This document shows, one piece after another, positions 27,963 to 50,858 of a stretch of 64,000 bases of DNA (its first letter is position 1; each line of letters opens with the position of its first letter). The notes beneath the pieces are model-generated. The model was given only the letters and a program-made list of their open reading frames with translations, was not told where the DNA came from and ran no database searches. The position numbers and the translations under genes are program-made. This DNA comes from Isoetes taiwanensis (Eukaryota; Streptophyta; Lycopodiopsida; Isoetales; Isoetaceae): NCBI GenBank assembly GCA_021234155.1, contig JAJEKV010000057.1, positions 6,169,821 to 6,233,820 on the forward strand, read 5' to 3'.

Positions 27963-28500
27963 TGTTCTAAGAGATAAATACTAGACATAATTAAGTTTTT
28001 GTAGGAGAGCATGAGTCCTTGGCTCTAGACATTAATTTTGTTGTCCATAATACAATCTCTACCTAGTGAGAAAGAGGCACAATAGGAATCACATGCACAC
28101 CTTAGGATCTCACGTATAACAAGATGGCATATTAAACGGGAGCAAATCGTCAAAATGGGAGCGAAGGGAATATTCCTCAAAGATTCTTTTTTTTCAAAAA
28201 AAAGGAGCTAAAGTGTGGTTTAAAATGTTTTGAACCCCCCCCCCAAAAAAAAAAATCACCAATTTTTTTGTGCAGAGAGAGAATTGATTATGTTAATGTG
28301 ACACTTTTCACAGCAATTAAAACTTCCTTAAAGTATGTTTTTGGAGAGAACATCTAATTTAAGAAAATATTGCTTTGAACCTAAATTTGAAGTGAAGTCT
28401 TCAACTGAAATTGTAGTATTTTCAAAAATTGAAGATAAAATCCTCATATTCACATGCAAAATTTACGCCTTTTCCTAAGACTCCGGTTATGTGCAAAAGT
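27963..28500. other. Spacer between copia remnant and DUF7869 locus
   Basis: No gene seen. It contains a C9A10-type homopolymer junction near 28,237-28,256. It may include LTR sequence of the copia remnant. Confidence 0.3.
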
Positions 28501-28544
28501 GTGAGGAGTGATGAAAGAGGGATCCAGCACATCATCGTGCTCGT

Positions 28545-31500
28545 TTATGCCTTCATCATCACCTTCACTTCTTTCACTATCACTTGAGGAAGTGCTAGAT
28601 TTATCTTCCTCGTCACTATCAACAGAGGGTGAAGCATTGCCACTCTTTTCATCTTTTTCCTCATAATTACAAGCTTTTTAAGCAAGTTGATCGATCCTTT
28701 GACGTAGATGATTGTCGATTTCAATTTGAAATCATGGCACAATATAGTCACGTCATGTAGGTTTAGCTCATCCCTACAACCTATTTTCTTGGCCTTTTTT
28801 TTTTTCCTTGGCTTCTCATTTCTAACTCATATCTACCTTCAAAAGTATTTTTTCAACGTGTAGCAAGCCGATTGAATCTTGAGCTTAGTCACTAAGCCTT
28901 CCTCCTTGATTGTATTGAGTACTTTGGCTATCCAAAAGATCGCTTTTTTTATCCTCTTCTGTTGGAAGAGCAATCGAAGATACCCTTGGCAATTTCTGTG
29001 ATATTACCTGGAGTCTCATTCTTGCGTTTTGGTCTGAGGTACACGACCCGGTCCTCATCTTCCTGTACTGGAGGTGCTACTGTAGCATTGCTGGAACCTG
29101 CCTGGTGTTGAGGTTGATGGAAGGCATTAGGCCACTCAAAAGGTTCCTGCAACTGCCTTAGAGTTAGGTTTTGAAGCATAATCTGTTGTTCAACAAAGAA
29201 ACTTCTCCACTATATTTGGTTCTCTTCTAAGAAGTACTTAAAGCCCCAAGGAAATTCCATTCTCAATTGCTTTTAAAGATTTCACTGGGGTACTTTTCTT
29301 TTGCTTTGACTCTTTTAGATTCTTCAAAGGAAGTTGCTCAGCATGTTCTACCAAAGAAGTGTCTGGAACAGATTTGAGGAAGTGCAACCCCTCTGCTGGA
29401 CTCCAGTCTTTAGTTGTATATTTCTTTCTCTATAAGAACTTTCTCCATTCTTTAAATAAAAACTTGATATGATGTTGAAAGGTAAGATCATTCAACTTAT
29501 TCACAGCTTGTTCTTTATCATAACGTCGAGAGAAAACAAATTCTCTAAAGTCAGCAATCTCCTTGAGAAGCTCAACCACTGGAATGGGAGTGTAAGAGTC
29601 TTCAATGATTCAAAAAGCAGGGAAGATAAAAAGTCTTGGCTTCTTCTAAGGCGCTTATCGAAAAATCTCTTTGAACATCTACTCTATTTGATCGTGAGTG
29701 TGGCCTACAAGTAAGAATTGAGCTTTATTTTTCTGAAGATCCCTAGCTCCACTAGCATGGCACAGTAAGCAAAGAGTGTTTGGTTCTTGTTCTCTCTGGT
29801 GGTATTGTCAAGTTTCAGGTAGAGCATTGGTGGTAATTGCTCTTGTTCACAAAGCACCTTGTTAAGAATTATATTGTGATGTTCGGGTCACCATGCAAGT
29901 TAGGATACGTTAAAAAGACTTTGCACTTCATACTTTCTTTGAAGATCGTAACTCCAACTAGATGGACCTTAACAAAGCATTCCTCTGGCACATCTTTAGG
30001 AATATTCAAAAAATGAGGTAGAGTTGTTATGCGTTTTTATCCATTCCATCAATCACAAATGCATACATATCCCGCAAGAGACATTCAAGAGCTTTTTTCT
30101 GTGCTTAGCAAGTTTCCTTCTCTCGGCTATTTGTTGTTCACGGTGTCTAGCAAGATTTTGTTGAACAATATATGTTGAAGAAATCAGGTCAGAACAAACC
30201 TATGAAGCAAGTACTGGGAATGAAAAAACTTTAACTTACTTCTTTCAACCCCAGTCTTTACAATTTATTTTTGACTCTTCAATTCTGCACACCTTGAGCA
30301 AACGGACATCCTATGTTTTCGAGGAATTTTCACGAGACCGAATTCACTCTTCCAAATCCGCCAGAAGTGTGAGTAAGAGATGTGTTGAGACTGCATGCAT
30401 ATCTCCTTATATTCTTGGAAGACATCTTTCTTTGTGATGTTGTCAGTCAAATGATACATATTGCTATTATGCAACTTTTCACATGTTTCTCTAAAATATT
30501 TCTCCATCCATGTGACAGCAGCCAGGGTGTGCATTGTTATCATCCTTCTTGGCCCACATTGATCGTCAATGGATGTATTTTTATCCAGTCCCTTGTGTAT
30601 CCGAGACATTCTAGTGGACCCTAAATGGTGGACAACCATAAAACATTTACGGCATACTTGTTCCACGGTTTATGTAATACAAGAATGTGTGGGCGTTCTG
30701 GTCTTACAGATAAGCTAAATAGGCATTCAGTTTGCTAGAGTCATAGAACTGTAATTGTCTCTAACTGCACGCTAGCCATGTTGAATTTGTTGATGCAATC
30801 CAGTGAACATCATTTAGTAGTTTTTTAGAAGTCTCCTCATTTTCTACTCATCAAAAAGATTTCTTCTTCTTACAGAGGAACATGCTCTCAAGCTAAAATC
30901 CACCTTGAATTTCTTGGAAGATTGGCTAGAGAACGTGTAATCTCGTTGCTCCTCCTTAGAGTTCACCCCTCGTTCATCATCTGAGGAGAGAGCAACTCTA
31001 GGAATCATCTCCTCTTCCCACAATGGTGTGCTTGTAGACGAAAATAAACCATGTGAAGTGTACGGGAAAATGCGGGGCCTGATGTTAAAAGTAGGGGACG
31101 GCCCATAAGATGTTGTGGCAAATGATGTTGTGGCAGCATGTTGTTGAGGAGGCATTTCAAATGTTTCTCTCAGAGCATCTTGAAATTCTGCATAGCCATG
31201 TGTCACATGCATTGTTGGAACAGGTGCAGAAGCTATAACATCATCCTCATTTGTAGTAAAGTCATGGTGTGAGAAGTTATAAAGAATCTTGCATTCCTCA
31301 TAACATGCTGCGGACTTTACACTTCTAATTGGAGTAGGTGAAACTACAAATGGAGGTGGCGATGCGCTCGAATCACCTATTGAGATCTTTCATCTAGTGC
31401 CGGCCAGGACTTGGTGATGGTTGAAAAGGTGGTGGTACTCTGTTAGTTGCTGGACTGAGAGTGTCCTCAAGAAGCAACAAAGATTTTGTTGAGACTGGTG

Positions 31501-31615
31501 TTGGAGAAGTGTCAGCATCAGGGGGAAACACATTTTGGCCAGGTGTTTCCTCTGATGAAGAGGAACCAGAGACAATGAATGGGGGTGGAAGTCTGTTTTG
31601 AACAGGTTTAGCCAT
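28545..31615 (-). pseudogene. DUF7869-family transposase-like protein gene, degenerate
   Basis: Minus-strand blocks in order: a low-complexity Pro/Ser/Thr N-terminus (MAKPVQNRLPPPF from 31,615); VCRKCFMVVHHLGSTRMSRIHK (near 30,620); HISYSHFWRIWKSEF...IPRKHRMSVCSRCAELK (about 30,380-30,270); LECLLRDMYAFVIDGMDKN (30,061-30,033); LPPMLYLKLDNTTRENKN (29,818-29,781); and FRKIKLNSYLVGHTHDQIE (29,707-29,680). The D of 'IDGMD', the 'LDNxTRENKN' and the 'VGHTHxxID' blocks are the signatures of a large eukaryotic family (DUF7869) that looks like a DDE-type transposase. A basic tail follows down to 28,545. Frameshifts and stops break the copy; some gaps may be introns. It is divergently placed to the ParB-methyltransferase gene, about 1 kb away. 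Confidence 0.62.
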
Positions 31616-31737
31616 CCTCAACAACTGCAAATGGAAAGTGAAGGTAAATAACCAAGATGTCTGTTGTGCTACTGCTAATCGAGAATATAAAATGGTTTTG
31701 AAGGAGAAAGAAATTATTTAGAAGGAAACCAAAAAGC

Positions 31738-31955
31738 TATTCCAGAATACACTTTAGTCCAACGCACAAAGCCCAAGTATATTCTGGAATACACATTGGC
31801 TTCAGTTGTTGGACTAAAGTGTATTTCGGAATACATTTTCAATTAATGAGTAAGGCCAAAGTGTATTCTTTGGCTTTCGTTATTCAGCAAAAGTGTATAC
31901 CAGAATATACTTTAGTCCAACAAGGAAAGATAGTGTGTATTCTGTAATACATTTT
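31738..31955. repeat. Array of TTCnnGAA palindromes in the divergent intergenic region
   Basis: About six copies of a palindromic core occur within 220 bp: TATTCCAGAATA (31,738), TATTCTGGAATACAC (31,780), TGTATTTCGGAATACA (31,820), TATACCAGAATATA (about 31,896) and TGTATTCTGTAATACA (about 31,936). Several are joined to CTTTAGTCCAAC in alternating orientation, making larger inverted repeats (31,738-31,763 against 31,807-31,835). The location between two divergent genes suggests a regulatory or transposase/partition-protein binding array. Confidence 0.75.
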
Positions 31956-33851
31956 GGCTTTGTGTAGAATGTTGTTTGTCTTATCTCGAGTTCTTTAGGT
32001 GTTTTCCAGACTACAAATGTGTTTTTTAACTATAAAAAGTCTAAAATATTTTGGAAGTAGCTGTCTATTTCTTCATTAAGCTTTTTTACCAAAGCCTATT
32101 TTTGTCGTGTTTAGGATCTTATTTTTGTGATTTGTATCCCAGAGTACGTTTTACAGTATGATTTGTCCTCTTTTTTGGTGCATCTAACAACAACTTTCTT
32201 ACAAGCAAGGTGCACGCCAGAAATCTACGGGGGTACCATCAAGATTACAAAGAAGCCACACCCATAGAAGAACGTTGACACGGCTTCTTGAGCCGGCTAT
32301 TCTGATTAAGCACAAACTCGTTCATGACAAAGGGGCACCTAACGAAAGTACAATACAATAATGTTCTTGCATGTAATGTCCAAAAGCCACGGAAATAAAA
32401 GGTATCTTTACGCAAGTGAGTTTGATTGCATAAGGCGGATAAGAGACATTTCCAGGCTGGCGGCCGAGTCCAAACAAAGGTGGAAGGACCTCCTTTAAAA
32501 TATCACAAGGTTTTATTATTCTTGACAAAGCCTATTTCAAACTGTCTAGGGTGAAGCGACCTTTTGTACAAGATATGGCTCACTACTCGCACAAAGGAAA
32601 GACTTTTCGCCTAATTGGCCGAGTTCGAAAGAGTCAAAGTGAAGACTTTGCCTACAATGAGTCAAAGCAACGAGGGGTATGGGGTGATATTGGATTGCGG
32701 GGAAGGTGATTCTTCCAAGAGGCGAGGATGCAAAAAGTTCAAGAGTCCGTCAAAGAACAAGTTGTAAAATGAAAGAGGCCAAGAGGTTGTTGTTGTTAAG
32801 GGCGAAGAAAAAGAAGACAATGGAAATAGTTGTGGCGGATACTCAAAAAAAAAAAATCCTAAAAACAAAAGGCAAGGGCAAAGCACCAGGTGTGGCTATG
32901 AGCGAAAGAAGGTGGACAAAATGACCCGAAAAGAATGGAAGAGATAAAGCTGGCTGAAGTTTGTGCAAGGAGTTATTTATCTGCCGGTGACTTGTATGAA
33001 ACTGCCCCAAAGAATGAAGCGGGAGAAAGGCCGCCGGGTTGAAAAAATTTATCACGAATCACTTGAGGAACTGAAAGCAGAATTAGGAACAACTCTAACA
33101 CTCACATATATGGCTCCCATTGTGGTGCTTGTGGGCGAGAACCACGGTTACCTGAGACCCACAAAAGTATGACCGAGAGAAAATGCCCACACGCATACCG
33201 CATTATGTTTTGGGAGGAAACCATAACTTCAAGGCAAGAAGACAAGCGTACAAAGAAAATACAATTCCGGATATACTTTACGTTCTCCTAAACTAGTGGC
33301 TAACAAGCATAATCTGAATAATTGAGTGCAAACTCAAAATGAGTTTTGTAAACAAGCTCGAGTTCATGCATGGAGTTAAGTCATCTTCAAGGAAAAGTCT
33401 ACGGTGGCGACCTGAAGAAGCCTACACCTCGTTAGAGCTTAAAGAAACATGTGCAATAGAGTGTTGCCTTAAATCTGGCCGAGGCCAATAAAAAGAACCT
33501 CACAATTGGTTTTCGGTTCTTGTTCGAGAGGGCAGTGCATTACCAATCGAAAGTCATTTGCGAGATATGGGAGCTTTAATTACCATGTTTGAGCCGGGAG
33601 GCGAAGAGCAAGGGAGAGGTTTTTCAAAAAATAAAGGCTCGGGCGTCCCAAAAAAAGAAATGACAATTCTTGTATGGAGAGAGCTATAAGGGTTCTGAGA
33701 CTTCAACCTATTAGAAAGGCTTTTTAAAAGGTGGTGGACAAGGAGTTCACATTAGAAAGATCTCTAACGAGTTGCACAAGTAAGTTTCTTCATTGTATGT
33801 TTGTTTTGCATCTTGAAGTTGTTTAAAGCGTGCATTACAATTTGGACAAAA

Positions 33852-33991
33852 TGTGATTCGAATACACCTCCACTGTGGTTAGAGTGCGGATGTGTATTTT
33901 GGAATACACCTTCAAAAAGCGTGAAGGAATAAAATTGTATTTTCTAGTACATTTTTTCGAGCTAGAAAATCAAATGTGTATTCTAGAATAC
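33852..33991. repeat. Second cluster of the TTCnnGAA palindromes, inside the ParB-methyltransferase gene
   Basis: TGTGATTCGAATACAC (33,852), TGTATTTTGGAATACA (33,893), TGTATTTTCTAGTACA (about 33,936) and GTATTCTAGAATAC (33,978) occur in a stretch that is probably intron (a donor-like CAA|GTAAGT lies near 33,780). Two more, TATTCTGGAATAC (34,399) and TATTCTGGAATAG (34,483), lie inside the 34,388-34,567 intron. Confidence 0.7.
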
Positions 33992-34387
33992 CTTACACTT
34001 CTTTGAGGCGACAAAATCGGTAGAGAGAAGGATGGTAGAAGTTGGAGATTCTGGACTGACGGTTCACCATGTTGAAACGAGAATAATTTGTTCTCATGGA
34101 TTCATAGTATTTGCACAAAAAATGGTGGGGTGTGTGAAGCCACATTATTTTACTCCCATCATTGTTGATATTTCTTATGGCTTTAAAATTAAAGACAGCC
34201 GTTACGATGATTGGGCATTCATGCACACTAAGTTCAACAACTTCATCGAAGGATTCCAGAAGATGACAACAGCTAAGCACTGGAGGCTGGTTGTTTTTCA
34301 TTCTAGCATGCAAGTTGACCTGGTTGAGGCCAGCTTCAAAAAGTATTTTGGGTCCTCCGACCAAGCGGGCTATGAGAATTTGGTTTG

Positions 34388-34567
34388 GTAAATTTCCTAT
34401 TCTGGAATACATTGTTTTCCGTGGTTGTGTTTTTACCTTATGGTTGTATTTTACTAAAACAAGTACTTTTCCTCTTTTGCTTTTATTCTGGAATAGGAAG
34501 CGTGAAATCTTTTTACTTCTTCTTAACATTTGTTCTTCTTACTAACTAGACTTGTTTTTATCCTTAG
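34388..34567 (+). other. Intron in the ParB-methyltransferase gene
   Basis: TTTG|GTAAAT and TCCTTAG|GTACAA bound 180 nt. Removing it continues the frame from ENLVW into YKTNINYHLWRSWLL, in the style of the family. Confidence 0.6.
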
Positions 34568-34844
34568 GTACAAAACCAACATCAACTACCATCTTTGGAG
34601 GTCCTGGTTGTTGAGCAAAGTCGAATATCTTCACGTTGCTTACTGGAGCTTCGATGCAAGAGGGTTATGGAGCACTTTAGCACTGCTCCTTGCTCAAACT
34701 TCTCCAATGTTTTGGAGTTTCCAGGAGTGTTGCAGAAGCTGCAAGACTCAACTGCGCAGGGCTGAATGTAAATCATTACCAGAAGCCCCAGAAGCTTATC
34801 AACCTTTCACGTCAAGGTAGCCTATGCACTTAAAAAGGGCCGCA

Positions 34845-35436
34845 TGTTAGTCCTGCGGCCTCCCAGTGCGAGGACTATTCATGCATATCGACGAACCGTG
34901 GTCAAGCTCAAGGATCCTCGATCGACCCGGGTCAGCCATCAAAGGCTCCCAGGAAGACCAAAGCCCGGAACCGCCTTGATCCAAAACTGTGGCGTCAACA
35001 AGCTCAGCTTCGGACAAGTGACGACCCGTCCACGCCGCGTCCCGGCGTCGGCGTGATTCTAGGCACTTCAAAGAGCCACCGCCAACATTCCACCGCAAAT
35101 CGGGCTCCTCCTTCGAGTCGGCACCGAGATCAGTCAGAGTGTCTATATTGGGCCCAAGGCCATTGTACTATATATATGAGTAGAGCTAGCACATGAGTTT
35201 TTAGATGAGTTTTGAGTCTTGTCTCCTTTCAGTTTTCTCTCTATTGCGAGAGCTCATGTACTTTCATCATTGATATCAAGGGAAGCTTATCATCTTTCTC
35301 TCATTTGTTACGTTTTCTTCTTCTCCTTCTCTTCTTGCAAATCCAGCGTGACATAGTCCCCCTGACTCTCTGTTAGATCCACGGGTCCTCCACGCAGGGC
35401 TGTCTTCCAGGAGTTCCCGAACCCGGACCCCAAACA
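34845..35436 (+). repeat. 5' LTR of gypsy element 1
   Basis: It begins TGTTAGTCC and ends CCAAACA. A TATA-like CTATATATAT lies near 35,168, followed by the R/U5 part that is nearly identical to the 3' LTR. No clear TGG primer-binding site follows it; the next bases are CCGCCGCGCTGCCGG. Confidence 0.93.
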
Positions 35437-35859
35437 CCGCCGCGCTGCCGGAGTGCGATTCTATCCTACTTTTTAAGCCATATGCGTCTGGTAATTTCCA
35501 CGCCCGGAAGAACTCCTTTCTCGTGACGCGGCCTCGCTTGCGGGCCATCGGCGTCGAAACTGTTCGGCGACATGTATGGATGCGCTTATGACATAGAGGG
35601 AGGCCATCTTCGGTCTAGGGCTCGGTCGGCGCCACCCACCCCTGCGTGTCAGTCTGGTCCCAGTTCCCGCCCCAAAGCGTGCAAACATTGCTCACAACCT
35701 CGGTCCCTCATCACTGCTCGGGGAGCCTTATCGGGCTCAACCTTCTCAACCGTACTTTCACACCCAAACATGCCTACATCCAACATTCTTGAGGCTATCG
35801 CCTCTTCCTTCACAACCATCATCTCCCCGGGTGGGCAACGGCTATCCACATGTCTCCTT

Positions 35860-37240
35860 TAAGCCTACCGGGGAATATCCTTTCCCTCGTTTCCCCTTTG
35901 CTCTTCTGTTTACAACCTTACGGATCTCAAAACCAATGCTCCAAATACTTTTCCGCCAACCGCTAGCCACCCCTTCATCGGGGTCCTTTCAGCACCATGC
36001 CACATCCAACTCAACCTCAATATCCTCACTATATTTGTTCTGTCGCCCCGGCACTTTCACATCTACCTTCCGGACTCAATCCCGGCTTATCCCACCTTTG
36101 GCAACACAAAAAGGCAAAACCAGATTAGACCAAAGTGCTTTCAGCCCACATGGAAGAATTTGAGGCTCTAGCTGCCCTAAATGGTCATGCGCAACCTCAA
36201 CTGAAATTCCACATCTTTTTCCACCACCTCTGCGTGGCTCTCCTCATCAATGGCTCATGTCCAACAAAAGCCATTGGAAACAAGATCGGTCCGAAATGCG
36301 CCCTTGCTTTACGTCTCATTACGGGACCACGGATGATGATCAACTTCATCTCAAGCAACTCAATGAACTTCAACAAGAGCCCACGGAGTGCCTGGATTTT
36401 GGATCGACTTCACGATACCTGCTAAGTAAGCTCAAGGAGTACCCCACACGAGCCGGTTTTTTGGTGCGGTTTCTCCAAGGACTTCCTCCCGCTATTCGAC
36501 TCATGATCAATACTGGCGTCCCAAGACTTTTGGAGCGCCGGCTATCGACCTTGTCAATCACTCACTCAATGTTTCCTCCTCGAGGCGTGGCTCTTCAAGA
36601 GCTCCGATTCATTCCACTGTCATGGTTCCACAAAAACGGTACGTTCGGCCTCAACACGCTAATCCACAGTATCCAAATCTGGTGCCATATTTGCAAATAC
36701 CAAGGCCATTTGGCAAATGAGTGCAACTCCACCAATGGCCCGCCTCATTGCAAGCGATGCAACATGTGCAATCATGCCCGCGGAAGAGTGCACTTTCGCA
36801 CTCATCCCACACCGCTCAAGAACAAAATGGTTTATCAAAGTGCAAACCACACCTCGGCAACAATCGCACTATCGGCAAACCACCGCCCGGTGCAGCCCAC
36901 GCAACTCTATCGCCAGCGGGGAGCAACCACGGGGATCCAACCAACGTCCTCCTCCTTTGATCCTTCTAAAGCTCGGTGTTATCACCGCCAAGAATGGGGT
37001 CATACCACCACGGCGTGTCCTCAACTTCCACAAGTTCAGTGCCTTCACGGCACAAATCGGACCACATCGGTCCGCCTCACGGCTTACCAACTCGGCTTGC
37101 TAATGGCAAACAAGGCCCGACCGGTTCTTAAGAAGCCACCAAGAGCACCTCAAAGAATCACGCTATCAACCAGCTCCAAAGAAATCAACCTCACCGGATC
37201 AACAAGCCCAAGAGGAAATTTTTCGTGCACTTAATCCTCC
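35860..37240 (+). pseudogene. Gypsy 1 gag (capsid and nucleocapsid)
   Basis: Frames 36,135-36,425 and 36,257-37,234 give the capsid region (VRFLQGLPPAIRLMINTGV). A CCHC zinc knuckle, CHICKYQGHLANEC, follows (about 36,690-36,730), with a second degenerate one (CYHRQEWGHTTTACP, Cys replaced by Arg). The tail is rich in Gln, Thr and Pro. It packages element RNA in cytoplasmic particles. Frameshifts break it into pieces. Confidence 0.75.
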
Positions 37241-37769
37241 CGTCCGGCCATCAAATTGGGTTGGTTTAGTTTCACGCTGCACCAAGGCATCACGCCCCTT
37301 GACCATTATTCAATGGCACGCGAACTCGCGCTTTTGCGTATTGACACCATTCCTCATGAGGACGAAAAAAGGTTCACTTTGCACTGACTTGGAAAAGCTC
37401 ATGCCACATGTCATGCCCAAAGTTCGCCAAAGCATTTTGAACCTCATGCAAGGCTTTGAGGCCGCACATTGGCAAATGTTCATGCCACCACTAGAGCTCA
37501 ACAAAGACAAGATACCCTTCAACATCTCAACCTCCACGCCTCGGACATATCCCAATATTGCTGCCGGGGTTGACTTACTCAAAGAAGTTGCCGCTTCCAC
37601 GCCACGCACTCGCACCGATTGGAACCCGCAGATCCTTTTTCTCATGTGCCTCTCGAACTCCAAGAGGAGCTCGCCAAGATCAAAATTCCTCTAAGCTTGG
37701 CAACCATTTTAAAACTCGTCACGCTCTCTCAAGGACCGGTTACCACTCCCAACTGTTTTTAGTTGGGGC

Positions 37770-38050
37770 GTGGCTACCTCTACACCCACGGTCCATGCCA
37801 CGGTGGGTAATCGCCAAGTCAACCATGTTCAAATAGATGGAGGTAGCGCCTTGATCAATCTCATCACGGATAAACTCCGCAAACAAATGGGCATCACACA
37901 ACTCTTTCGCGCCCCATATGACATCAAATTGGCTAATGGCCATATCCGCGCGACCTCAAAGTCACACCTATTCTTCACATCAACATTGGTGATCTCCGCT
38001 TCCCCATGGAATTTGGAGTTTGGAAAGCTGGCGAAGATCCGGTGACTATG
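37770..38050 (+). pseudogene. Gypsy 1 aspartic protease
   Basis: The frame has VNHVQIDGGSALINLI, the D-[TS]-G region of a retropepsin with G in place of T/S, followed by DIKLANGHI, a usual second strand. It would cut the gag-pol polyprotein. The frame is lost soon after 38,045. Confidence 0.7.
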
Positions 38051-38779
38051 AAATGCTGGTCGGCAAACCTTTTTCTCCGCCCGGGCAAGAGTATCCATTC
38101 TCGGGCCACGGACGGGTTAGTCATCACCGATGGTCATCTCAATGCCACCATGGACTTGCAAACGAGCGGGATCATTTCGCTGACAATGCGGAACCCTCTC
38201 TCTTTCATTAACCGATTCTGAAGAAGCTCGAATATTTATCAAGTTCGGGCTCCACTGCGCGAAGTGCGCCTCGTCATCCTACCTCCGAATATCTGATCCT
38301 TGGGGAGAAATGACTCTTGATCGGACCACGGTGGTCGCTGGCTTTGACCCCCTACCCGGCTCCTTTGCAATCGAATCCAACGTTGATCACTTTTCAGATC
38401 TTTGAACCTCCTGCAACTCCCCGCGATGTACACTTGGCCGCCGCATGAAGCAACCTGCCGGATGAGGCCGAGCAACCTCTCTTTTTCACCACGCAAAGTG
38501 CCACGCATCCGGTTATGCTCCAACCTCCTGCACACATTGTCGGGGATATCGAAGTCATACCCCATATTCGGACTCGAAGTCGAGATTGTGGGCGTCGGCA
38601 ACAATCAACTTTGTCGCATTCTTTGCCAAATCTTCCGGCTCCTTATCGTAGGGGCCGCTAAGTCGTTCAAAAATTCAAACACATTTTTACCGAGTTACAA
38701 AGATCTTGGGAATCAACAAAAGCTTGGGGAACTCACCATTCCTACCAAATCGATGCACGACCCGGTGTAGCAACGGCGA

Positions 38780-39960
38780 TGCTGGCTCAACCCTAATTAC
38801 CGCAGATCGGCCAAGGCGGAAATTGACAAACTCCTTCTTTGCAGGTTTGATCTATGAGGTCAAACATTACGAATGGGTGAGCCCCATCGTCATTGCCCTT
38901 AAACACAATGGTAAGATCCGGCGTGCATTGTGGGACTATCTGAACTCAATGGGGCCACGAAAAAATTGATCATTTTCCACTTCCCTTCACGGACCGGGTT
39001 AGGAAGAAGTGGTCGGACATGAGATGTACTCCTTTATGGATGGTTTTTCGGCTACAATCGGATCTCAATCAAAGAATCGATCAACTCAAGACCACTTTCA
39101 CCACCCGGGGCACTTTTGCCTACAAGGTGGTTCCTTTTGGATTATCCAACTCTCCATCAACGTTTCAACGCATCATGCTCTCGGTTTTCATGATTTCATG
39201 AAGGAAAATCCCTTCTTGCAAATTTTTCAAGATGACTTCTCTCCCTCTGATTCCATGGCTGACCATTTGGATAAATTGGAACTTCGTCTTCCAGAAATGT
39301 GATGAGTCCCCCATTAGTCTCAATCCCGAGAAATGCACCTTTTGCGTCACCTCCGGTGTTACGTTAGGCCATGTTGTTAGCAGCGGCGGTATCACCACCG
39401 ATCCCGCCAAAATCGATTATTGTGCTCAAGGCTCAAGCACCGACCAATATCAAGGAGACACGCTCTTTCACGGGTAAGGTCAATTATTACTCCACCTTCA
39501 TACCGGATGGCGTATTGCGAGATCCCATTCATAAACTCACGGGATTGAATCCACCGGGCTTGGAATTCCTGTAGCGGAAGTCGCTTTCAACAATTTGAAG
39601 CTTTTGCTTACCGAGCACGGGTTCTTGTTCCTCCTCAATGGGACAAGCCCTTTCATGTTCATGTCGATGTCTCGGCGTTTTGCTATTGGAGCTGTTCTTT
39701 CTCAAGAATATGATGTGCACACCGACAAACCAAATCGCTTCGCCAAAAACTCAATTCTGGCTGGCGCAACTATTACGCCCGCGGGCGTGAAGCTTTGGGT
39801 CTCATTTTACGTCAGGTCCAACGCTTCCGTCATTACCTTTTGGGCAGTCAAATCAAGTTCTTTGTGGACCACCAAGCACTACTCTATTTAATCAACAAGT
39901 CCACGCCCACGGGCCGCGTTTGCTCGTTAGGTCCTTCTTCTCAAGAATTTGCTCCTTTTG
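38780..39960 (+). pseudogene. Gypsy 1 reverse transcriptase and RNase H
   Basis: Broken frames read WVSPIVIALKHNGKIR, FTTRGTFAYKVVPFGLSNSP-STFQRIML, LQIFQDDFS (catalytic D-D pair, about 39,220-39,240), LNPEKCTFCV and VTLGHVVSSGGI. These are the palm and connection of gypsy reverse transcriptase. RNase H follows (RRFAIGAVLSQEYD near 39,680; FFVDHQALLYLIN near 39,860). At least five frameshifts are needed to read it through. Confidence 0.85.
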
Positions 39961-40249
39961 AAATCGCTTCATAAAAATGGCAAAATCTCATGTCGTTCGG
40001 ATTATCTTTCACGCATCCACCACGGATGATCCCTCAACCGGAGTCTCGGATGCCTTTCACGATGCTCGGCTCTTTTTGGTCACGCGCAACACCACATTGG
40101 TTCCATGATTTTCAGCGGTACCTCCTCACGGGTGCTCTTCCACCCGGAAGGCGAGGCGCTCTCTCTCGCCAGCGACAATCCCGTCGCCATCAATTTCTAC
40201 TGAGAGGTCCGCGGACTACACCATGGTTGCGGGCATCTCTACAAAAAGT

Positions 40250-41345
40250 AAGGACACCATCCTTCCGGCGTGTTCTACCTCATGAAGTTCCGGATATTGT
40301 TCGGGAAGCTCATCAAGGGCTCGGTGGTGGTCATTTTCATGGTGACACCACGACGCGCAAAATCCTTCTCGGGGGTATTATTGGCCCACGCTCTTCAAAG
40401 ATGCTCACGCCCACGCTTGCACGCGTGTGACGGCTTGCCGGTGGGGGGCCCCACGGCCGTGGCGGCTCTTCCCTTGACGTTGGCCGCCACTTCCCTTCAC
40501 CGAAATGGGGAATGGACTTTGTGGGACCTATAGATCCTCTGGCGGCACACTCGTGCGATACATTCCAGTTCTCACCGACTTCGCCACCAAATGGGCGGAA
40601 GCTTGTGCACTTCCGGACAACAACGCCGCAAGCACGGCTAGAGTCCTCTATCAACAAATTATCACGCGATTCTACCGCCCCCACCTGAGCTGGTGGCAAG
40701 ACCGTGGTGTTCATTTCATCAATCATACTATCAAGGAGCGGATTATCTCGATACATCATCACAAGAGCACACCTTACTATCCTCAAGGTAATGGTTTGGC
40801 GAGTAAAGCACCAACAAAACGGGTCACCATTCTCAAGAAAATTTGTGACGCTTCCCCGCCGCATTTGGCGGACAAAACTTCCTTTGTTCTTTGGGCCTAC
40901 AATACTTGTTTCAAGATTGCTCTTGGTCACACTCCTTTTAAATTGGTTTATGGTCGGGAAGCTCTCATGCCGTTTGAATACATCCTTCCAACACTCCGTT
41001 TTCAACCAGCTCGCTCATAATCCACCCGCCGCACTCAAAGAAAGGGTCTATCAATTGGAGCAGTTGGATGAACTTCGACCGGATGCTTATATTCGTGTTC
41101 TTCTTGGACAACGATTGCAAAAATCTTTACATGACAAACGCCTGAAGACAAAAACATTCAAAGAAGGCGATTTGGTTCTTCTTTATGATTCCGGTACAAA
41201 AATTTTCCTGTAAACTCAAGTTTCGCTGGCTTGGCCCTTATCAAATTGTTCAAGTGGTTAGACCAAGCGCCCAACCTGGTTGAGTTAGATGGCACTCCAT
41301 TACCTACGTTGGTTAATGGTTTTCGCCTCAAAGCATTTCATCACA
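40250..41345 (+). pseudogene. Gypsy 1 integrase
   Basis: A zinc-binding part (H-x-G-L-GGGHFHGDTTTRKIL near 40,300) leads to the core: VLTDFATKWAEACALP (first Asp), WQDRGVHFINHTIKE (second Asp) and KSTPYYPQGNGLASK, where the expected catalytic Glu after NGLA is Ser. Then come FVLWAYNT and HTPFKLVYGREALMPFEY. A C-terminal GDLVLLYDS...RWLGPYQIVQVV domain ends near 41,345. No chromodomain is visible. With the Glu lost the copy would be inactive even without its frameshifts. Confidence 0.85.
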
Positions 41346-41449
41346 CGCATGAACATCAACAAACAGAGATAGTTCAAGAAGCAAACACCACAGTAAAGTG
41401 ACTAGAAAGGCGGTATATTATATTATAGTGGAGATTTTTTACAAAATGT

Positions 41450-44400
41450 GGGCGCATGATTAATATTTCCGCTATGGGCAATCGCTATATACAAAAACGG
41501 GCTCGAGCCCTATCTACTAAGTCCTAAGAGGAAAACCCTCTACTCGGGTTCGGGCGCGAGGTGATGCTGAGGAGATGGTAGAGGTTCTCGCTCCCGGATC
41601 CCAGCCGAGGTGCAGAACCACCTCCATCCCGTTGGTCTTGGCCGGGATGTTCACCATCCCGGCACACCAGCCGGGCCCATTCAATGCCACCCGGTTGTGG
41701 CAGCGCCAGAGATCCAGACAATTCATCTTGCAAGTGATCCACTCCTGACAGTTAGTGCAGCAGCCATACTGAGCGCCATCGGATACCTTCGTTACTCTCG
41801 GTTCGTCTTATATAGCCAACTGAGGAACTCCTTGTCGACGTGGACCAATCACACAAATCGCCAACGTGTTTGCAATGCAAGGCTGTTTCTAAAATGAGAA
41901 TCTTTTCTCCCGCCGCATATCTAGCCATGGTACCTTCTGACACATTCCTTTTAATGATATCCCACTTCGAGTTGCCAGCATTGAATGTCATTCCTTCTTT
42001 TCACGCCCGTCGAACATTAATGTGTGTCCTTTGCCACCTGTCACATCCGATCCTTCTTTCACGTCTCATCCTCACCGTTCATTGCTTCTCCCTTTACGCT
42101 TTTTGGGACTTAGCCAAATTTTTTGCCTCTCAATACCCTTCTTGGCATCTTTTGACACCGGCACCATCAACGGTTCCAGCCGCGACTCTTCATACCTCTT
42201 AAGCGCTCGGGTTATCGCCCTAAAACAAACCTTTTCGTTCTTCCTCGCCTTTGTCCTCCGGTGGCTCGACTTTTGTCTTCCGCCTTTGGAATCACTCTTT
42301 TGTTCTCGCACATCGTTACCATGGCTGCCCCAAGATTTTCTACACTTCAAACTACCGCCTCCCAAGGATCCGCCCTTTTTTGCATCTGTATCCTTCTTGG
42401 CGCCCCACTTTCAGGTGAAGCCCTTGTTGGCCCCAATAAAGAAGTCGCTGAATCGACACCAGCTTTTAACGAATTCTCTCAAATGGAACTTCCGGCTCCA
42501 AATCCTGATCAGTTGAAGCGGTTCATCCAATATCGCACGTTAACGACCCTAAGGTTACACCATTTGTGGTCGATGGCACCACCATTTCGTTGACTCAACA
42601 TTTGATTTCGGGGGGTATTTCATATTCCCTTGCACACCCCTTTGTGTATCATGGTTCATATCTGATCTCGATGTCACGAAGTTTGGTGCACCTCCTTATC
42701 ATGCCAATGTCCATCGTCCGACCAATATCGACAAGCCTCACGAAACCTTTGTTAAATTTACGTGGCGAAAAGTTCCTTTGTATTCTATCAAGAACACCCA
42801 TATCAATAAGCCTTTCTATAACCTGGTCCTCATTTGCTACACACCAAACACCACATAGATTGGCCCCAAATGATGTTCTATCGTCTTCTCCAAGAAATGG
42901 ACCGCCTTAGGGGTACCACTTCCATTTTCTCAAGTTTCTGGGGAGGCCACTTTCAAGCCCTCATCCGCCATTACTTCCTCCCACACCACCAAATTCTCAT
43001 AATTCCACTCAGGGCGCCCCCTTCATCACTCACCAAGCTGGCACTTCACGCCCTTTCCCCCTCGGTCATGTCCAAAGTCCGCACACCCATGTCACTTTGT
43101 CTCCTCCTCCACCCCATCCACTTCACACCATTTTTCCCAAACATCACAAACCCAAAAACGCGCGTTCCACCACCACAACACCCTCGCCGGGTTGTTGTAT
43201 CGATTCGACGCCGGGATGCTCAAGCTTTCCGCTCTCAAGTTACAAGAATCCCAAGACGCTCTTATGAGCGGGTTCAACGGCACTAAAGCCTCCCATGCGG
43301 TACACGGGACCTTCAGGCAAATCGCCCAAGTTGCAACTTTGAGGCCAAACTTCAAGACAAGCATGAAGCTCTCTTCTGAGGGCTCATGCGGATCTCAAAA
43401 AGTGCACAAGCTCAAGTCAGCCAACTCGCAGATCCATGTGGCTCACTCCGGTCAGAAATTCAGACTTTATTGAGCACAACAAGTCCAAAGCCGCTCTCCG
43501 AAAGTACCAAGGACTTGAGATATTGCTAAGCTCAATGCCTTGTAATTCGAATCAGGTGAAAATTTCAGCACTCAAGTTCAAAACCTTTCAGCATCGGGGC
43601 GCCAAGTTGCCTCCTTGACGGCCAGCTTTCATTACCGCACCTCTCACCACCTCTCTTCCGGATCGCCTTTTACGAGGTGCGTAAAACGAAGATACCGATG
43701 ACGCTTAGATTGCCGCCGTCGCCTCAATACTCGGGAAATCCTCCTCCCGCCTCAACACTTCTCTGAAACGGGTCCGCGGACTGAATCCTGCCGCTTTTGA
43801 AAGGGACAACCGATCCGCGATCTTGAACAACGGCTGCGGCAGCGAAGCTATTCGATCATCGGGATGAGGCTCGAGCAAAACTTGATCGCCCATACCGCCA
43901 TTCTTAACAGAATGCCTGTTGACTTCCTAGTTCCTTCCTGCTATCACGACTATGTGGTTGCTCGACGCCACCTCTTCCTTTCGAAGTGGCATGCGGCAGA
44001 TGGACCTGTGGATATCCCCCTGAGCAGTGCAGATTTTCTTCAGATTTGGCCAGAACTCTCCATTGAAGACAAAGGGTTGTGCTGTGCCCTTGTGGTCTTT
44101 GATCTCATACACTGTGCCGATCCAGACTTTATCACCTTCAGAGTGGGCCCGCCCCGACTTTTTCTACGGTGACCCCATCGCGGCAATGGGTGCTTCAGGA
44201 TAACAATCCCTATCTTAAAGGATCCCGCCGGACCCAAACTCTTCATCGAGTACATGCCCGAGCTTGCCAATCATTTGTCTCTTCCGGCGAAGCGAGCGCC
44301 AGAACAAATCGTCAAGTATCTCGGGCATCCCGCCAAGATCTTCCCTATGCACAAATTTATATGCAAAGACTCGCCCCATAATCAATTACATAAGCTCGTT

Positions 44401-45230
44401 GGATAGCAAGACGGTCTCCACGGATGGGATAGCCCTCCCATCCAACTCTCGACTCTCTGCTTCTCTTTGGGATCGTTGGTGTCAAGCTCTTGATCCGTGA
44501 TCTTGTCGATCAATTCGGGGAGACCGCCAGCAAACCCACGCCCACCTGCATGGTTCCTTCTCCCTATGCTTCCACGGCGCACCTCCACCCCCGTGTTCTG
44601 ACTTCGATTGGCGCCTTCCTTTTTGGACCAAGGTCATGGATGGTCATGCTCTGATGGACACCACCTCGATCTCGGCGGATCTCCTCGGTGGGATCCACGC
44701 TTTGTTCGGGCGCCATTATTGGGAAGAAGGTGCCACTCGACACCACCACCAATTGGATCTACATTGCTAATGGCGTGGTTGGCAACGCCGCGGATGCGCT
44801 TCATGGTCTTGACACCTTCTTTGCGAATGCCTCCACCTCACCCGATCCTTCTCGTCCATCTTCAAGCAGGATTTTGCGCTGCTCTCAAATGCATTTTGCT
44901 AAGCTCCTTAAATCGGCATTGCCCCATTTTTCATCGCAATCCAGAATGCCAAGAAAGGTTTTGGCCTTGACCTGTCTCCTCATGGAATGTCAAGACATTT
45001 CTTGAGCGCCCGCACGCGCCCTTGAAGACATGGTACGCTCCGCTTTCTTATTGATGCTGATCCTGCCCTTGGCCAAAACACTCCTCCCTCGCTCTTCAAA
45101 CCGCGCCAGGGATCTCATAAGCCAGTACCATAATGGTGCCCGGCCTCACTCCCCGTGAGGATCACTTTCGAGCATTGATGGCTTCCCGCCCTCAGAAACA
45201 CTTCCTCCTTTTCTTCACTCTGAGTGTCGT
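41450..45230 (+). other. Extra 3' coding-like region of gypsy 1, unknown product
   Basis: Between integrase and the purine tract lie 3.8 kb of plus-strand, GC-richer sequence with many medium frames that continue one another through frameshifts. Readable blocks include a Pro-rich part (42,950-43,180), KLSALKLQESQDALMSGF (about 43,210), a well-behaved 43,864-44,172 frame (FLVPSCYHDYVVARRHLFLSKW), FIEYMPELANHLSLP (about 44,240) and NWIYIANGVVGNAADAL (about 44,755). It looks like one or two former proteins, including helical segments, carried by the element. I do not recognise a family. Confidence 0.45.
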
Positions 45231-45244
45231 TTGGTGGGGGGGAG
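45230..45244 (+). other. Polypurine tract of gypsy 1
   Basis: TTGGTGGGGGGGAG lies directly before the TGTTAG start of the 3' LTR, the expected place for the plus-strand primer. Confidence 0.8.
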
Positions 45245-45825
45245 TGTTAGTCCTGTGCCTCCTGGTACAGGACTATTCATGCATACGACAGACCAGGTCA
45301 AGCTCAAGGATCCTCAGTCAGCCACGGGTCAGCCATCAAAGGCTCCATGAAGACCAAAGTGACCATGCACCCGTCAAAGCCATGGGTCGGAGTCAACAAG
45401 AGGCGCCGCCGACAAGTGACGCACGCCACCGCCTCGGCGTCCGAGTGATTCTAGGCACTTCAAGAGGCACCGCCAACATTCCTGCAAATCAGGCCTCCTT
45501 CCAGGAGTCGGCACCGAGATCAGTCAGAGTGTCTATATTGGGCCCAAGGCCATTGTACTATATATATGAGTAGAGCTAGCACATGAGTTTTTAGATGAGT
45601 TTTGAGTCTTGTCTCCTTTCAGTTTTCTCTCTATTGCGAGAGCTCATGTACTTTCATCATTGATATCAAGGAAGCTTATCATCTTTCTCTCATTTGTTCT
45701 GTTTTCTTCTTCTCCTTCTCTTCTTGCAAATCCCGCGTGACATAGTCCCCCGGACTCTCCTGTTAGATCCACGGGTCCTCACAGAGGGCTGTCTTCCAGG
45801 AGTTCCCGAACCCAGACCCCAAACA
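45245..45825 (+). repeat. 3' LTR of gypsy element 1
   Basis: It begins TGTTAGTCCTG and ends CCAAACA, followed by the CCGCA target duplication. From about 45,505 to the end it is almost identical to the 5' LTR; the first 250 bp differ by many substitutions and small indels. Confidence 0.93.
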
Positions 45826-45946
45826 CCGCAATTGTGTGGCTGTGGATATAGACAAGGAGGTTGTTAACTTCATAAAGAACACAAGTTCAGACACTGGATT
45901 GCAGAGGCAGACTATCTCTAGTTGTTTCTGTGTCGTGGGTTTGTGA
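45826..45946 (+). pseudogene. DNA methyltransferase gene, 3' part after the retrotransposon
   Basis: Joined across the element (one CCGCA copy removed), the codons read AYALKKGRNCVAVDID and then KEVVNFIKN, followed by a short tail and stop TGA at 45,944-45,946. An 'A-L-x-x-G-R-x-C-V-x-V-D-x-D' string is the second half of motif I in beta-class methyltransferases, where the acidic D-x-D contacts S-adenosylmethionine. A donor-like GAG|GTATAG overlaps the stop, so a further exon is possible. Confidence 0.58.
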
Positions 45947-47060: not shown

Positions 47061-49542
47061 TTTTTTTTTTGAAGAACGTGTTTTACTTCATATTATACAC
47101 TCAAAATATTATAAAGTACTTCCAGAAGTAAGAAATGTCCCTGAAGCATCAATCACTTTTAGATGATTACTCCATATTGGAATTTTAATACGATCAGGCC
47201 AATTGGAGATCTGAAAGCAATTATACAACTTCTTACGAATTTCTTGAAGCACCACCTGAGAAGAAATACGCTTATCATAAAAGACCTTTCTTCGCCTTCG
47301 CTTCCATACACTCCATATTAGCCAAGACTTTGCCATGTGAAATGCAATCCTTTTAGAAGCAGTCCACTGATTTGGATAAATACCCAAAAGAAAGTGCTGA
47401 TTATCCAAAGATACTCCAAAAGAGAATGCAAACCGGGACCTAAGACTACTCACCTCAGACACAAATATAAACAAGATAATGTTTCAATGCACCGCCATAC
47501 ATTGGGCAAAGTGGGCTTACTCCCCGCTTTTAAAGCGATGAACCATCTCATTAACTCTCAAAGAGCGATGAATCACCTGCCAAAGTAGAACATTTACCTT
47601 TGGAGGATTATATTTAGACCAAACAAGGTTCCAGATGGATTGCCATTGAGAAGGCAAAGTCTGTAAGTGCCATTTTCGAGAAGGTGATAAAGTATTTGAG
47701 GAGGTAAGCAATCTGTAGCATGAACTTACTAGCTTATTGCCTTCTTTAATACCTTGAACAAAGTTCCAAAGATCTCTTGTTACCCACCTTCTTAATTAGA
47801 GGAAGAGCACTTGCTACATAAGCCCATATAATCGATATCTTTATCCAACAACCCATATGTCTCCTCAAACCATTGCCAAGGAGCAATGTCAATACCAAAA
47901 TACCAATTGCTCAATAGAAATAATACCGCTCTTCTCCACCTCGCTGGGAATGCGATGCATAAATTCTACAACCGGGTGTAGTTGTCCATGAGTATACAAA
48001 GGCAACCACGTAAAGGGGAAAATGCCCGGAGACAAGCTTCCCAATCAAATGTAATCACTGGCTTTGGACTACCTTCCGCAGGGCGAAGCTAGCCGCTCAA
48101 GATTGGAGAGGCATGTGAAGAAGCTTTCAATGGATATAACAATGCCCAAGGGAGCTCAACTCTCACACCTCGCTATGAAAACCATACACTTCTTTACTGA
48201 TTGTTTAAGTAACTTCATACCGTGATGCACAATCATCTTTCAACAAACTGAACAATAGCTTAGAAGCTAAGACCTTACCCCCAGAAAGAAAGATCCAACA
48301 TACCAAGTCCTCCTTGTTGTTTAAACAACATACATTTCTTCCACGCCAACTTCACAGTGCCTCCTTGATTGGTACACCAGACAAAATCTCTTACAATCTT
48401 TTTTATCTCTGCAAACTTAGAAGCTGGAGCCAATAGAACTGAAACCAAATAAATATGCGTATTGTTCAATACTGACTTAGCTACTTGAATTCTACCTGCC
48501 AAGGATAACTTTGAACCTCTCCACCAAATCAGTTGCCTTTGTAAATTTAAGATAATTTCATCCCATGCTTCATTCATGTCAATATCTAAACCAAAGGGGA
48601 CTCCTAGAAGCTTTGTCTTTGCAGATGGTACAACAACCTTCCAGGCATACTCATATAAAAAAATGCGGAACTGCTTCCTTCCCCACCCATAAAGCAATTG
48701 AAAATATATCCAAAATCTTTTTAATTATCTGCACATTATTCTCTTCACCATCCACTAGCAAGAAGGTATCGTCTGCAAACTGATTAACCAAAACCTGTTC
48801 ACCTTCATCCAATAATAATCCCTTAACCAAACCATCCTTTTCAGCCTCATGCAATAGTGGCGAAAGTCCTTCTGCAGCTAAAGGGCAACCTTGCCTTAGT
48901 CCACGTTCAATTGGAAAAAGCACCAATGGTTCTCCATGATACAATACTACCCCCTTAGCAAAAATCAACATTTTTTTGCATCATAGATCGGAAACCAGAC
49001 CCAAATCCCAATTTCAAAAGCATGGCATCCAAGAAAGTCCACTTCACACTATCATAAGGTTTAGCAAAATCCAATTTTAAATATAGAAGATTTTGACCTG
49101 AACATTGGGCCCAATGAACTCCTTCATATGCTGCCACTATATTATGAAAAATTTGTCGACCTGGAAGAAAGCCTGACTGAGCCGCATCTATTCTCAATCC
49201 CAAAACCTGTTTAAGTCTTTCTGCATAGGCTTTTGCAATAATTTTATAGATAGTAGATAGAAGAGTTATTGGGCGCCAATCATGAATGCTCACAGGTTCT
49301 TTCACTTTAGGAATAAGAGAAATCAAACCCGTATTCAAAATCCTATCAAATTGATGTGAAGTACACAAATCTTTGTAGGCCTCCATAATGCTTACTGACG
49401 TCCATTCCCAATACCTTTTAAAAAATTCTACAGGGATACCATCCATACCTGGACATTTATCTGAAGCCAACTCAAATATTGCTGCTCGCAATTCAGACAG
49501 TTCTTGCATGCCAAGCATAATAACAAAGTCTTGCAACACCAC
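47061..49542 (-). mobile_element. LINE 2, 5' truncated
   Basis: Minus-strand frames give a reverse transcriptase of a lineage different from LINE 1: SDKCPGMDGIPVEFFKRYW, DWRPITLLSTIYKIIAKAYA, AAQSGFLPGRQIFHNI, LLYLKLDFAKPYDSVKWTFL, RGLRQGCPLAAEGLSPLL, then VNQFADDTFLLVDGE (catalytic A-D-D near 48,780) and LLGVPFGLDI. Thumb and tail frames follow (KLSLAGRIQVAKSVL; NPPKVNVLLWQVIH near 47,600). The 3' end is marked by ten T at 47,061-47,070 on the plus strand. The first RT block is cut at 49,542 with no endonuclease upstream, typical of incomplete reverse transcription. Three large frames (196, 107 and 141 codons) are separated by single frameshifts, so it is younger than LINE 1. Confidence 0.9.
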
Positions 49543-49555
49543 TAATCCAGCATAA

Positions 49556-50858
49556 TAAATGGATTTTCAATGATGTAATATGCATTGGGATAATGGACCT
49601 CTTTTGTATTACCTGTCATGTATTATACTATGTCCTACAAGTACTATCTTTTGGGAAAGCGTGGCCCATGGAGAAATTTAAGAAATGTTAAAAATTGAAA
49701 TTGTACATGAGATGTTAAAACAATAAAGCTCAATTTATCAGGTTTAATTTATTAAATATGAATTGGACTATGTTGTAGTGGATGTAAAATAGTGTCAGCT
49801 TTAAACACTATTTAAGGAAGGTGAAGCAGATGATTTGCTCTATTAAATCTCATAACCGAGCTATCAGGTTTTATTTTTTAGTGGCATGCTCTAGCTCCTT
49901 CAATTGTTCTCCAATAACATGAAAGCTGATCTCCAATAAAGATCTAAAAATTTGAATATTGTGATGTATTGTAATCCGCAATAAAGACGTCGGAATATGA
50001 ATATTAGTTGTGATGTATGTTACATTCAAAAATGCTAGATTTGAATATTCTGAGTGCGTAAAACAATTTACTTAGTTGCAATTATGAACATTTTGCATGT
50101 TTGCAGGGTAAGTATAAAATACAGTCGCAAGAAGAAAAAAAAAATTATAAGTATATCTGGAAGTGTATCTGAAGAAAAATACAGCAGCAATTTTGACCTG
50201 CTTACCGATGACATTGTTTGAACATACAGAACTATATACAGAAGAGGAGATATACATAAGTCTATCTCCTCGTCGAGGCTCATCTTGAGTCATATTATAT
50301 AAGTTGTAAGAACAGTAAATAGAAAAAAGATGCCATTGAAATAGAGTAGAAGAGAAGGAAAACACGTATTCTATATAGAGATGCATAGCAACATATGCTC
50401 TATTTGAAATTGTATGTGGCATCGGTATTGTGCTATCTTGACTTGTTCAATGACATTGGCATCTCAGAGCTTGCAGAGGAAGCAAGCGTCAAGGTATTGC
50501 CTCAAGATATGGCGATCTATTTATGTGTATCGCCTCGTGTTCACGCATTATTGCGTAAAGCATAACCTGCTATCGCCCTTTAGCATTTGCACTTAATAAA
50601 ACACAAAGAAGTCATCAAAATGAAATATGCAAAAGAAAATCGACATAATACAATCGGAAAAAACTCAGCCGCAACCAAAAAAATCAATAGAAACATAGGT
50701 AAAATAACCTTTTGAGAAACTTTCTTTGATGATTCAAAAGAGAACCTCCAGAATCCTTAAGTTGCAACTAAAAACTCCAAGAAAACCACAACAAAAGTAG
50801 CCACCAAGAGATTTCTTTGATGATTCAGAAGAGACACCCCAAATCATACAAAACTACA
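49556..50858. other. AT-rich spacer without a recognisable gene
   Basis: Only short frames without motifs on either strand. Confidence 0.4.

Follow-up and report, generated by a model that had tools for sequence, protein, structure and literature searches.

A ParB-like–methylase fusion gene in an abundant DNA transposon of Isoetes taiwanensis, with palindromic iterons as its putative self-targeting sites

The window analysed here is a 64,000-nucleotide stretch of the Isoetes taiwanensis genome (contig JAJEKV010000057.1, positions 6,169,821 to 6,233,820), for which an original prediction, made from the sequence alone, had proposed a gene joining a ParB-like domain to a beta-class DNA methyltransferase. 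Comparison with related sequences shows that this gene belongs to a dead copy of an abundant 8-kb transposon with two genes, the other encoding a DUF7869 transposase-like protein, and we find it reasonably probable that the ParB-like–methylase fusion would target the element itself via palindromic repeats (iterons). The element may thereby mark its own DNA. By binding the iterons, the ParB-like part would direct the methylase to the promoter and body of its own element, and the methyl groups written there would either maintain expression of the element or set the timing of its transposition. Such self-targeted methylation is suggested by the arrangement: a DNA-binding-like domain is joined to a writer of methylation, the palindromes lie in the upstream region shared by the two genes and inside the methylase gene, and they change together with the protein.

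The genome assembly (1,658,258,908 bases in 1110 contigs) was searched for relatives. First-look candidates, which are not confirmed copies, numbered 1443 for the methylase domain N6_N4_Mtase (PF01555), 9903 for DUF7869 (PF25273) and 3077 for the ParB-like exon, and the best 150 of each were scored. All 150 methylase matches and all 150 DUF7869 matches were above the Pfam cut-off, and the ParB-like exons were 77–100 % identical. The scored PF01555 matches were mostly stop-free and mostly covered just the C-terminal part of the profile, as a single exon is expected to do. DUF7869 was found in none of 14 control prokaryote genomes. The proposal that intact relatives be sought in the same genome was fruitful, with many better-preserved copies found, and the element family is abundant in this genome.

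Linkage was counted among the three top-150 lists and compared with uniform placement. Methylase and ParB-like matches lay within 3.5 kb of each other in 44 pairs (0.095 expected), all 44 on the same strand with the ParB-like exon 1.6–2.4 kb upstream. Methylase and DUF7869 matches formed 22 pairs within 12 kb (0.33 expected), 20 of them divergent with DUF7869 upstream, and 19 of the 20 ParB–DUF7869 pairs within 9 kb (0.24 expected) were divergent. At loci picked on ParB score alone, an exon with methylase motif IV was present in the 1.5-kb flank of six of eight; one of the eight was the query's own place.

Six printed motif-IV exons of other copies read DLPY (elements E1, E3, E4 and E8), DIPY (E6) and DLSY (E5). 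The next exon of the better copies reads HYQKP...DAFSGSGTT...ALKKGRNCVAVDID, where DAFSGSGTT is motif I, so the predicted beta-class order of motif IV before motif I is seen in these copies. With hhalign, the motif-I exon profile matched bacterial ParB-methylases (probability 97 %, E=3.5e-11) and the motif-IV exon matched seven phage methylases (probability 96 %, E=3.7e-9). Among solved enzymes, the motif-I exon matched MboIIA (E=5e-9), CcrM (E=2e-7) and RsrI (E=8e-7). On this profile evidence, the better copies are beta-class DNA methylases (PF01555), above the curated cut-off. MboIIA, CcrM and RsrI all produce N6-methyladenine (m6A), and a motif IV that opens with D rather than S also points to N6-adenine. 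The methylase is nearest to N6-adenine enzymes and probably makes that product; the prediction had left the choice between N6-adenine and N4-cytosine, of which the nearest solved enzymes suit the former better and the latter less well.

Ten elements were compared by fetching 20 kb around methylase–DUF7869 pairs, picked for that linkage. The layout of the window was common to all ten, and among the matches listed in an all-against-all comparison, at least nine of the ten aligned mutually, some at full length and some piecewise at 67–80 % identity; element E10 was placed by its ends. Both ends were visible in six elements, which measured 8.0–8.4 kb with boundaries set by the analyst. In all six, the terminal inverted repeats were imperfect and the target duplications 4 bp long, the latter read by eye as AAAC, TAAG, ATAT, ATAT, CATT and AAGA. 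Terminal inverted repeats with duplications of fixed length identify the family as a DNA transposon. A 4-bp target duplication characterizes the Sola superfamily and is present in the six bounded elements, whose transposase is DUF7869, a domain of which a literature search found no mention. The structure of the elements and their copies bear out the prediction of a eukaryotic mobile-element DNA methylase with introns that is dead in the window.

The candidate address lies in the iterons. Tandem Repeats Finder (TRF) detected 41–43-bp units at ~5.8–6.4 kb in all six bounded elements and at ~3.9–4.3 kb in four of the six, with a unit consensus that mostly includes CAAAGTGTATTCC/GGAATACACTTTG, or nearly so. 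Counted with up to four mismatches to the inner 18 bp, there were 103 iterons in the ten elements (hereafter family A), 44 of them perfect, with 3 to 19 per element; as controls, the sequence flanking the elements within the fetched 20 kb gave one, and ten shuffled elements gave one. Most lay between the two genes or between the ParB-like and motif-IV exons, with a few strays elsewhere, for example at 0.4 and 6.9–7.3 kb.

A sister family (family B) was represented by two of the best DUF7869 matches, the first and second listed, picked regardless of methylase, with 6 kb fetched upstream of each. Both of these elements carried a divergent ParB-methylase. The DUF7869 domain of family B is 64–65 % identical to that of family A, and the corresponding values are 50–54 % for the ParB-like exon, 39–40 % for the motif-IV exon and 45–66 % for the motif-I exon. 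Family B has its own palindrome, GTATGAATTCATAC, of 14 bp, with nine copies per 6-kb piece at up to two mismatches: six are at positions 0.17–0.9 kb of the piece, ahead of the frames of the methylase gene and presumably in the intergenic region, and three follow the ParB-like exon. The family A palindrome was absent from the two family B elements, and that of family B was absent from the ten family A elements. The two share GTAT....ATAC and differ at the centre, which is TCCGGA in family A and GAATTC in family B. An 18-bp palindrome was also sought in family B; no perfect one was found and the site is taken as 14 bp. A second repeat, with a period of ~20–23 bp, was seen near the upstream region in both families, as CACTTTT.AGCTGAAAAA-like units in the intergenic region of family A (E1, E3 and E5, ~4.1–4.3 kb) and AATAGAAAAATCGGCTGTAGA-like units in family B (L054 and L055, ~1.1–1.5 kb).

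Selection was estimated by the Nei–Gojobori method as the ratio of non-synonymous to synonymous divergence (dN/dS) between copies other than that of the window, dropping pairs that shared under 60 codons or had a synonymous difference ≥0.74 or ≤0.02. The median was 0.075 for the transposase (highest 0.55; 61 of 153 pairs, 18 copies, eight sister-family loci), 0.153 for the ParB-like exon (highest 0.52; 11 of 66 pairs), 0.139 for the motif-IV exon (highest 0.58; 37 of 136 pairs) and 0.034 for the motif-I exon (highest 1.08; 96 of 153 pairs, with a median dS of 1.6 that is near saturation). By these ratios, the methylase is under purifying selection comparable to that on the transposase.

The ParB-like exons of better copies read KFVQGVIYLPVTS...IVVLVD...YVLGGNHSFKARRQL...VYCGLTDEEAKIVANTHN...MSFVDKIRFMH. 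A 333-aa frame gave a weak match to phrog_1033, 'ParB-like partition protein' (E=7.6e-4), another exon matched phrog_723 at E=0.29, and a match to DUF6551 (E=0.0023) was under its cut-off. An AlphaFold2 model showed the order of strands and helices that we take to be that of the ParB/Srx fold. The ParB-like exon at L027:500–1144 and at L039:448–1092 matched phrog_30771 (E ~9e-4), a phage family with 610 positions and unknown function; this family may be related to it more closely than classical ParB is. In the upstream part of the methylase gene of E3 (L030/L031), the ParB-like part is preceded by a conserved N-terminal region, QWFVTRGADGKYSTLTFLYVCKSAG..., of an unknown family.

Several results weigh against a self-targeting fusion of this kind. 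Pfam ParB_N gave no match at E 0.001 in the whole genome (two candidates scored), an hhalign comparison with ParB was collinear and not significant (probability 0.3 %, E=0.21–0.23), and the 215-aa exon inside the 333-aa frame did not match phrog_1033. A sequence search of solved structures gave no relevant match for the ParB-like part, and its AlphaFold2 model was of low confidence (mean predicted local distance difference test score 65, predicted template modelling score 0.45). The ParB identity that was originally assigned thus keeps its motifs and weak profile matches, with Pfam ParB_N, hhalign and the 215-aa exon against it; a ParB fold is weakly indicated and not proven. For the methylase, single-sequence searches with the motif-IV exon gave weak best matches, some to DNA methylases and some to the tRNA methyltransferase Trm14. 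The dN/dS medians draw on part of the possible pairs, and individual pairs reach 0.5–1.1. One family A element has three iterons only, and the two family B elements, on which the comparison of families rests, are near-identical in the printed frames. The iterons can, moreover, be read alternatively as sites of the transposase or of a host factor.

A fuller form of the self-targeting account, in which the ParB-methylase of each family recognizes its own iterons, writes m6A or N4-methylcytosine (m4C), shields the element from or competes with host silencing, and diverges together with its palindrome, is tentative, and we would put it below an even chance. If the iterons instead serve the transposase or a host factor, the methylase would have no sequence address and might, for instance, act on DNA of any kind or on the terminal repeats. 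Transposases of many elements bind promoter-near repeats, and the first iteron array lies upstream of both genes. However, the palindromes of both families also occur within the ParB-methylase gene, between the ParB-like and motif-IV exons. Each family, moreover, has a palindrome of its own although DUF7869 (64–65 %) has diverged less than the ParB-like exon (~50 %). We regard this alternative as unlikely, though deserving of serious attention. Similar standing is given to methylation that times transposition rather than countering silencing, as with Dam and Tn10/IS10, where hemimethylated DNA after replication licenses the transposase. An N6-adenine-related beta-class enzyme encoded by an element that has terminal repeats and makes 4-bp duplications would suit such a role, but most iterons are found in the intergenic region and in the methylase gene, away from the terminal repeats.

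A mere passenger role for the fusion, as a gene captured from bacteria that does nothing for the element, is in our view very improbable. Phage ParB-methylase relatives are indeed very common in bacteria (all 8000 of 8000 scored candidates at E ≤1e-10), but the fusion has been retained in two diverged families under purifying selection comparable to that on the transposase. The same commonness of ParB-methylases in bacteria could raise the suspicion of a contaminated assembly, and a single host gene might also be imagined. Both are rejected with near certainty: the copies read share the place at which their exons are split, contigs that carry copies reach beyond 51.9 Mb, the elements have terminal repeats with target duplications, and the linked DUF7869 gene was found in none of the 14 control prokaryotes.

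The putatively self-targeting transposon is represented in the window by the following features.

28118..28225: transposon left end, with the terminal inverted repeat AACAAGATGGCATATTAAACGGGAG..., 80–83 % identical to the left ends of six better copies
28453..31717, minus strand: transposase-like DUF7869 gene, disrupted and pointing away from the methylase gene
31735..32016: iteron array 1, in the region from which the two genes diverge, holding GTGTATTCCGGAATACAC in six degenerate copies with 2–4 mismatches each
32957..33461, plus strand: ParB-like region in broken frames (IYLPVTCMKLP; GGNHNFKARR; LVANKHN; CKLKMSFVNK)
33168–33293, plus strand: GGNH block, from the window frames
33284–33322, plus strand: NKHN block, from the window frames
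33892..33993: iteron array 2, a pair of degenerate palindromes (2 and 4 mismatches) after the ParB-like exons and before the motif-IV exon
34020–34388, plus strand: motif-IV methylase exon, VDISYGF, 64 % identical over 90 aa to another copy (tblastn, E=4e-37)
34569..34843, plus strand: HYQKP methylase exon, motif I deleted, stopping at the retrotransposon
34765–34806, plus strand: HYQKP block, from the window frames
34845..45825, plus strand: Ty3-like long terminal repeat (LTR) retrotransposon, LTRs 87 % identical
45830..45910, plus strand: remainder of the methylase exon, NCVAVDIDKEVVNFIK..., past the retrotransposon

The left end was revealed by comparison with other copies, a search for terminal repeats within the window alone having given nothing. 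GTAT stands directly before 28118 and is a candidate half of the 4-bp target duplication. In comparison with other copies, no right terminal repeat was found and the element could not be traced past 45910. The window is 78–79 % identical to other copies in nucleotides over 28118–31359 and 71 % over 32861–33259, and PF25273 matched at 29708–29887 with 59.1 bits (cut-off 26, E=5.6e-16). TRF detected no array in the window, where the iterons are degenerate. Six of the eight decayed iterons have TG or CA where the intact centre has CG, one keeps CG and one has TA; TG and CA are as expected from deamination of methylated cytosines.

All the sequence blocks quoted in the original prediction were found in the window reading frames on the plus strand, in the order given, and belong to one gene. 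They lie in differing frames because the gene is broken, and they are not random because other genome copies match the pieces in order on one strand (tblastn). Against the open exon of another copy, the ParB-like exon of the window aligned at 33168–33527 with 44 % identity over 135 aa, three stops and 15 gaps (E=4e-22). The last exon aligned as four separate pieces (35, 31, 26 and 19 aa) with identities of 62–79 % (E=8e-26; last piece 5e-4). The block running from ALKKGR to NCVAVDID is in two halves parted by the retrotransposon, which is flanked by CCGCA at 34840–34844 and 45826–45830 and was assigned to the Ty3-like type by eye from pol-like frames. Read across it, the junction from KKGR to NCVAVDID gives ALKKGRNCVAVDID. 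This sequence is present as predicted, but it lies directly after motif I, which is itself deleted in the window; likewise, the predicted interval does hold the gene blocks, with ~11 kb of it being the nested LTR element. With frameshifts, stops, the deletion of motif I, an altered motif IV (DISY) and the ~11-kb LTR insertion, the window copy is dead.

When the broken pieces of the window itself were searched by profile in Pfam, PHROGs and NCBIfam, neither ParB nor N6_N4_Mtase was matched significantly, so on those pieces alone the idea would have failed by the refutation criterion given in the original prediction. Checked via the better copies, it is settled for the methylase and incompletely so for ParB. 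The stop-free motif-IV exon of the window matched two 136-aa proteins, P0001 (68 %) and P0002 (63 %), over 67 % of the query (E ~1e-31), with longest contigs of 2.2 kb for one and 2.8 kb for the other; a third protein, of 74 aa, came from a profile search (E=9e-5). P0001 and P0002 terminate at the same tryptophan as the window frame, where a GT-AG intron that splits the codon was read by eye (TG/GTAAAT ... TTAG/G). Scans of viral contigs with queries A1 and P0001, and of bacterial and archaeal genomes with query A2, found no relatives, and tblastn against phages and plasmids gave weak matches, mostly to annotated methylases.

Enzymatic m6A or m4C in land-plant nuclear DNA is disputed. The present family supplies, in a vascular plant whose genome is sequenced, a bacterial-type methylase gene that is open in many copies, and an address predicted for its mark. 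Because a dedicated gene, open copies and a predicted address come together, the question becomes directly testable.

Among phage and bacterial fusions, those of Aurantimonas phage AmM-1 and Vibrio phage VS-ABTNL-3 resemble the Isoetes protein in having a ParB-like part followed by a beta-class methylase with motif IV before motif I. They differ in being single open frames without the transposase and iterons of the Isoetes element, and their ParB part aligns weakly. MboIIA, CcrM and RsrI resemble the exon running from HYQKP to motif I (E=5e-9 to 8e-7); to our knowledge, they are neither ParB fusions nor transposon genes. Another parallel is Sola1-1_Ec32 of Ectocarpus, which together with related algal transposons is described as encoding a fusion of a ParB-like domain with an N4C/N6A DNA methylase (PMC12477816). 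In that description, the fusion is on the strand opposite the transposase, as in Isoetes, but Sola1-1_Ec32 is a 21.5-kb element of a brown alga, whereas the Isoetes element is ~8 kb and resides in a vascular plant; iterons are not mentioned in the passages on Sola1-1_Ec32. The kind is therefore already known, since ParB-methylase fusions are reported there in algal transposons. No ParB-methylase in a land-plant transposon was seen among the matches listed, and the one paper found to contain both 'ParB' and 'Isoetes' was an inventory of a herbarium; the Sola1-1_Ec32 account cites Iyer et al. 2011 and Petroll et al. 2025 for algae (PMC12477816), and those papers may describe land-plant cases. 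No literature report of iterons beside a ParB-methylase was met, although no search was aimed at iterons. The new parts are the abundance in a vascular plant and the iterons.

The anti-silencing VANDAL elements of Arabidopsis, whose layout the Isoetes element resembles, offer a further comparison. Their VANC protein is described as inducing loss of DNA methylation; its binding motifs occur ahead of the transposase gene, in tandem repeats, as well as inside introns of other genes of the element, and they vary between related families (PMC5735166). Set against that description, the Isoetes element is alike in having an element-encoded protein, repeats upstream of and within genes, and family-specific motifs, with binding being predicted in Isoetes. 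It differs in that the Isoetes protein is itself a predicted methylase, whereas VANC removes methylation. A writer here and a remover there would suggest that sequence-addressed epigenetic control in transposons has more than one origin.

Other features of the window lie outside the transposon. A 362-aa open frame at 5254–6342 (plus strand) matched the replitron HUH endonuclease domain (PF21859, E=5e-20), so replitron-like sequence is also present in the plant. Reverse-transcriptase-like remnants were found on the minus strand at 18363–19556 (RVT_1, E=1e-4, under cut-off) and at 47109–49566 (long interspersed nuclear element-like by eye). The region 20001–22000 is pyrimidine-rich and strongly strand-biased (GC skew -0.66, AT skew -0.62), with long low-complexity open frames on one strand. 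An uninterrupted 842-aa frame at 1796–4324 (minus strand) contains pentatricopeptide repeats and a DYW deaminase domain, which is in line with the high RNA editing described for the Isoetes plastome (PMC8566536).

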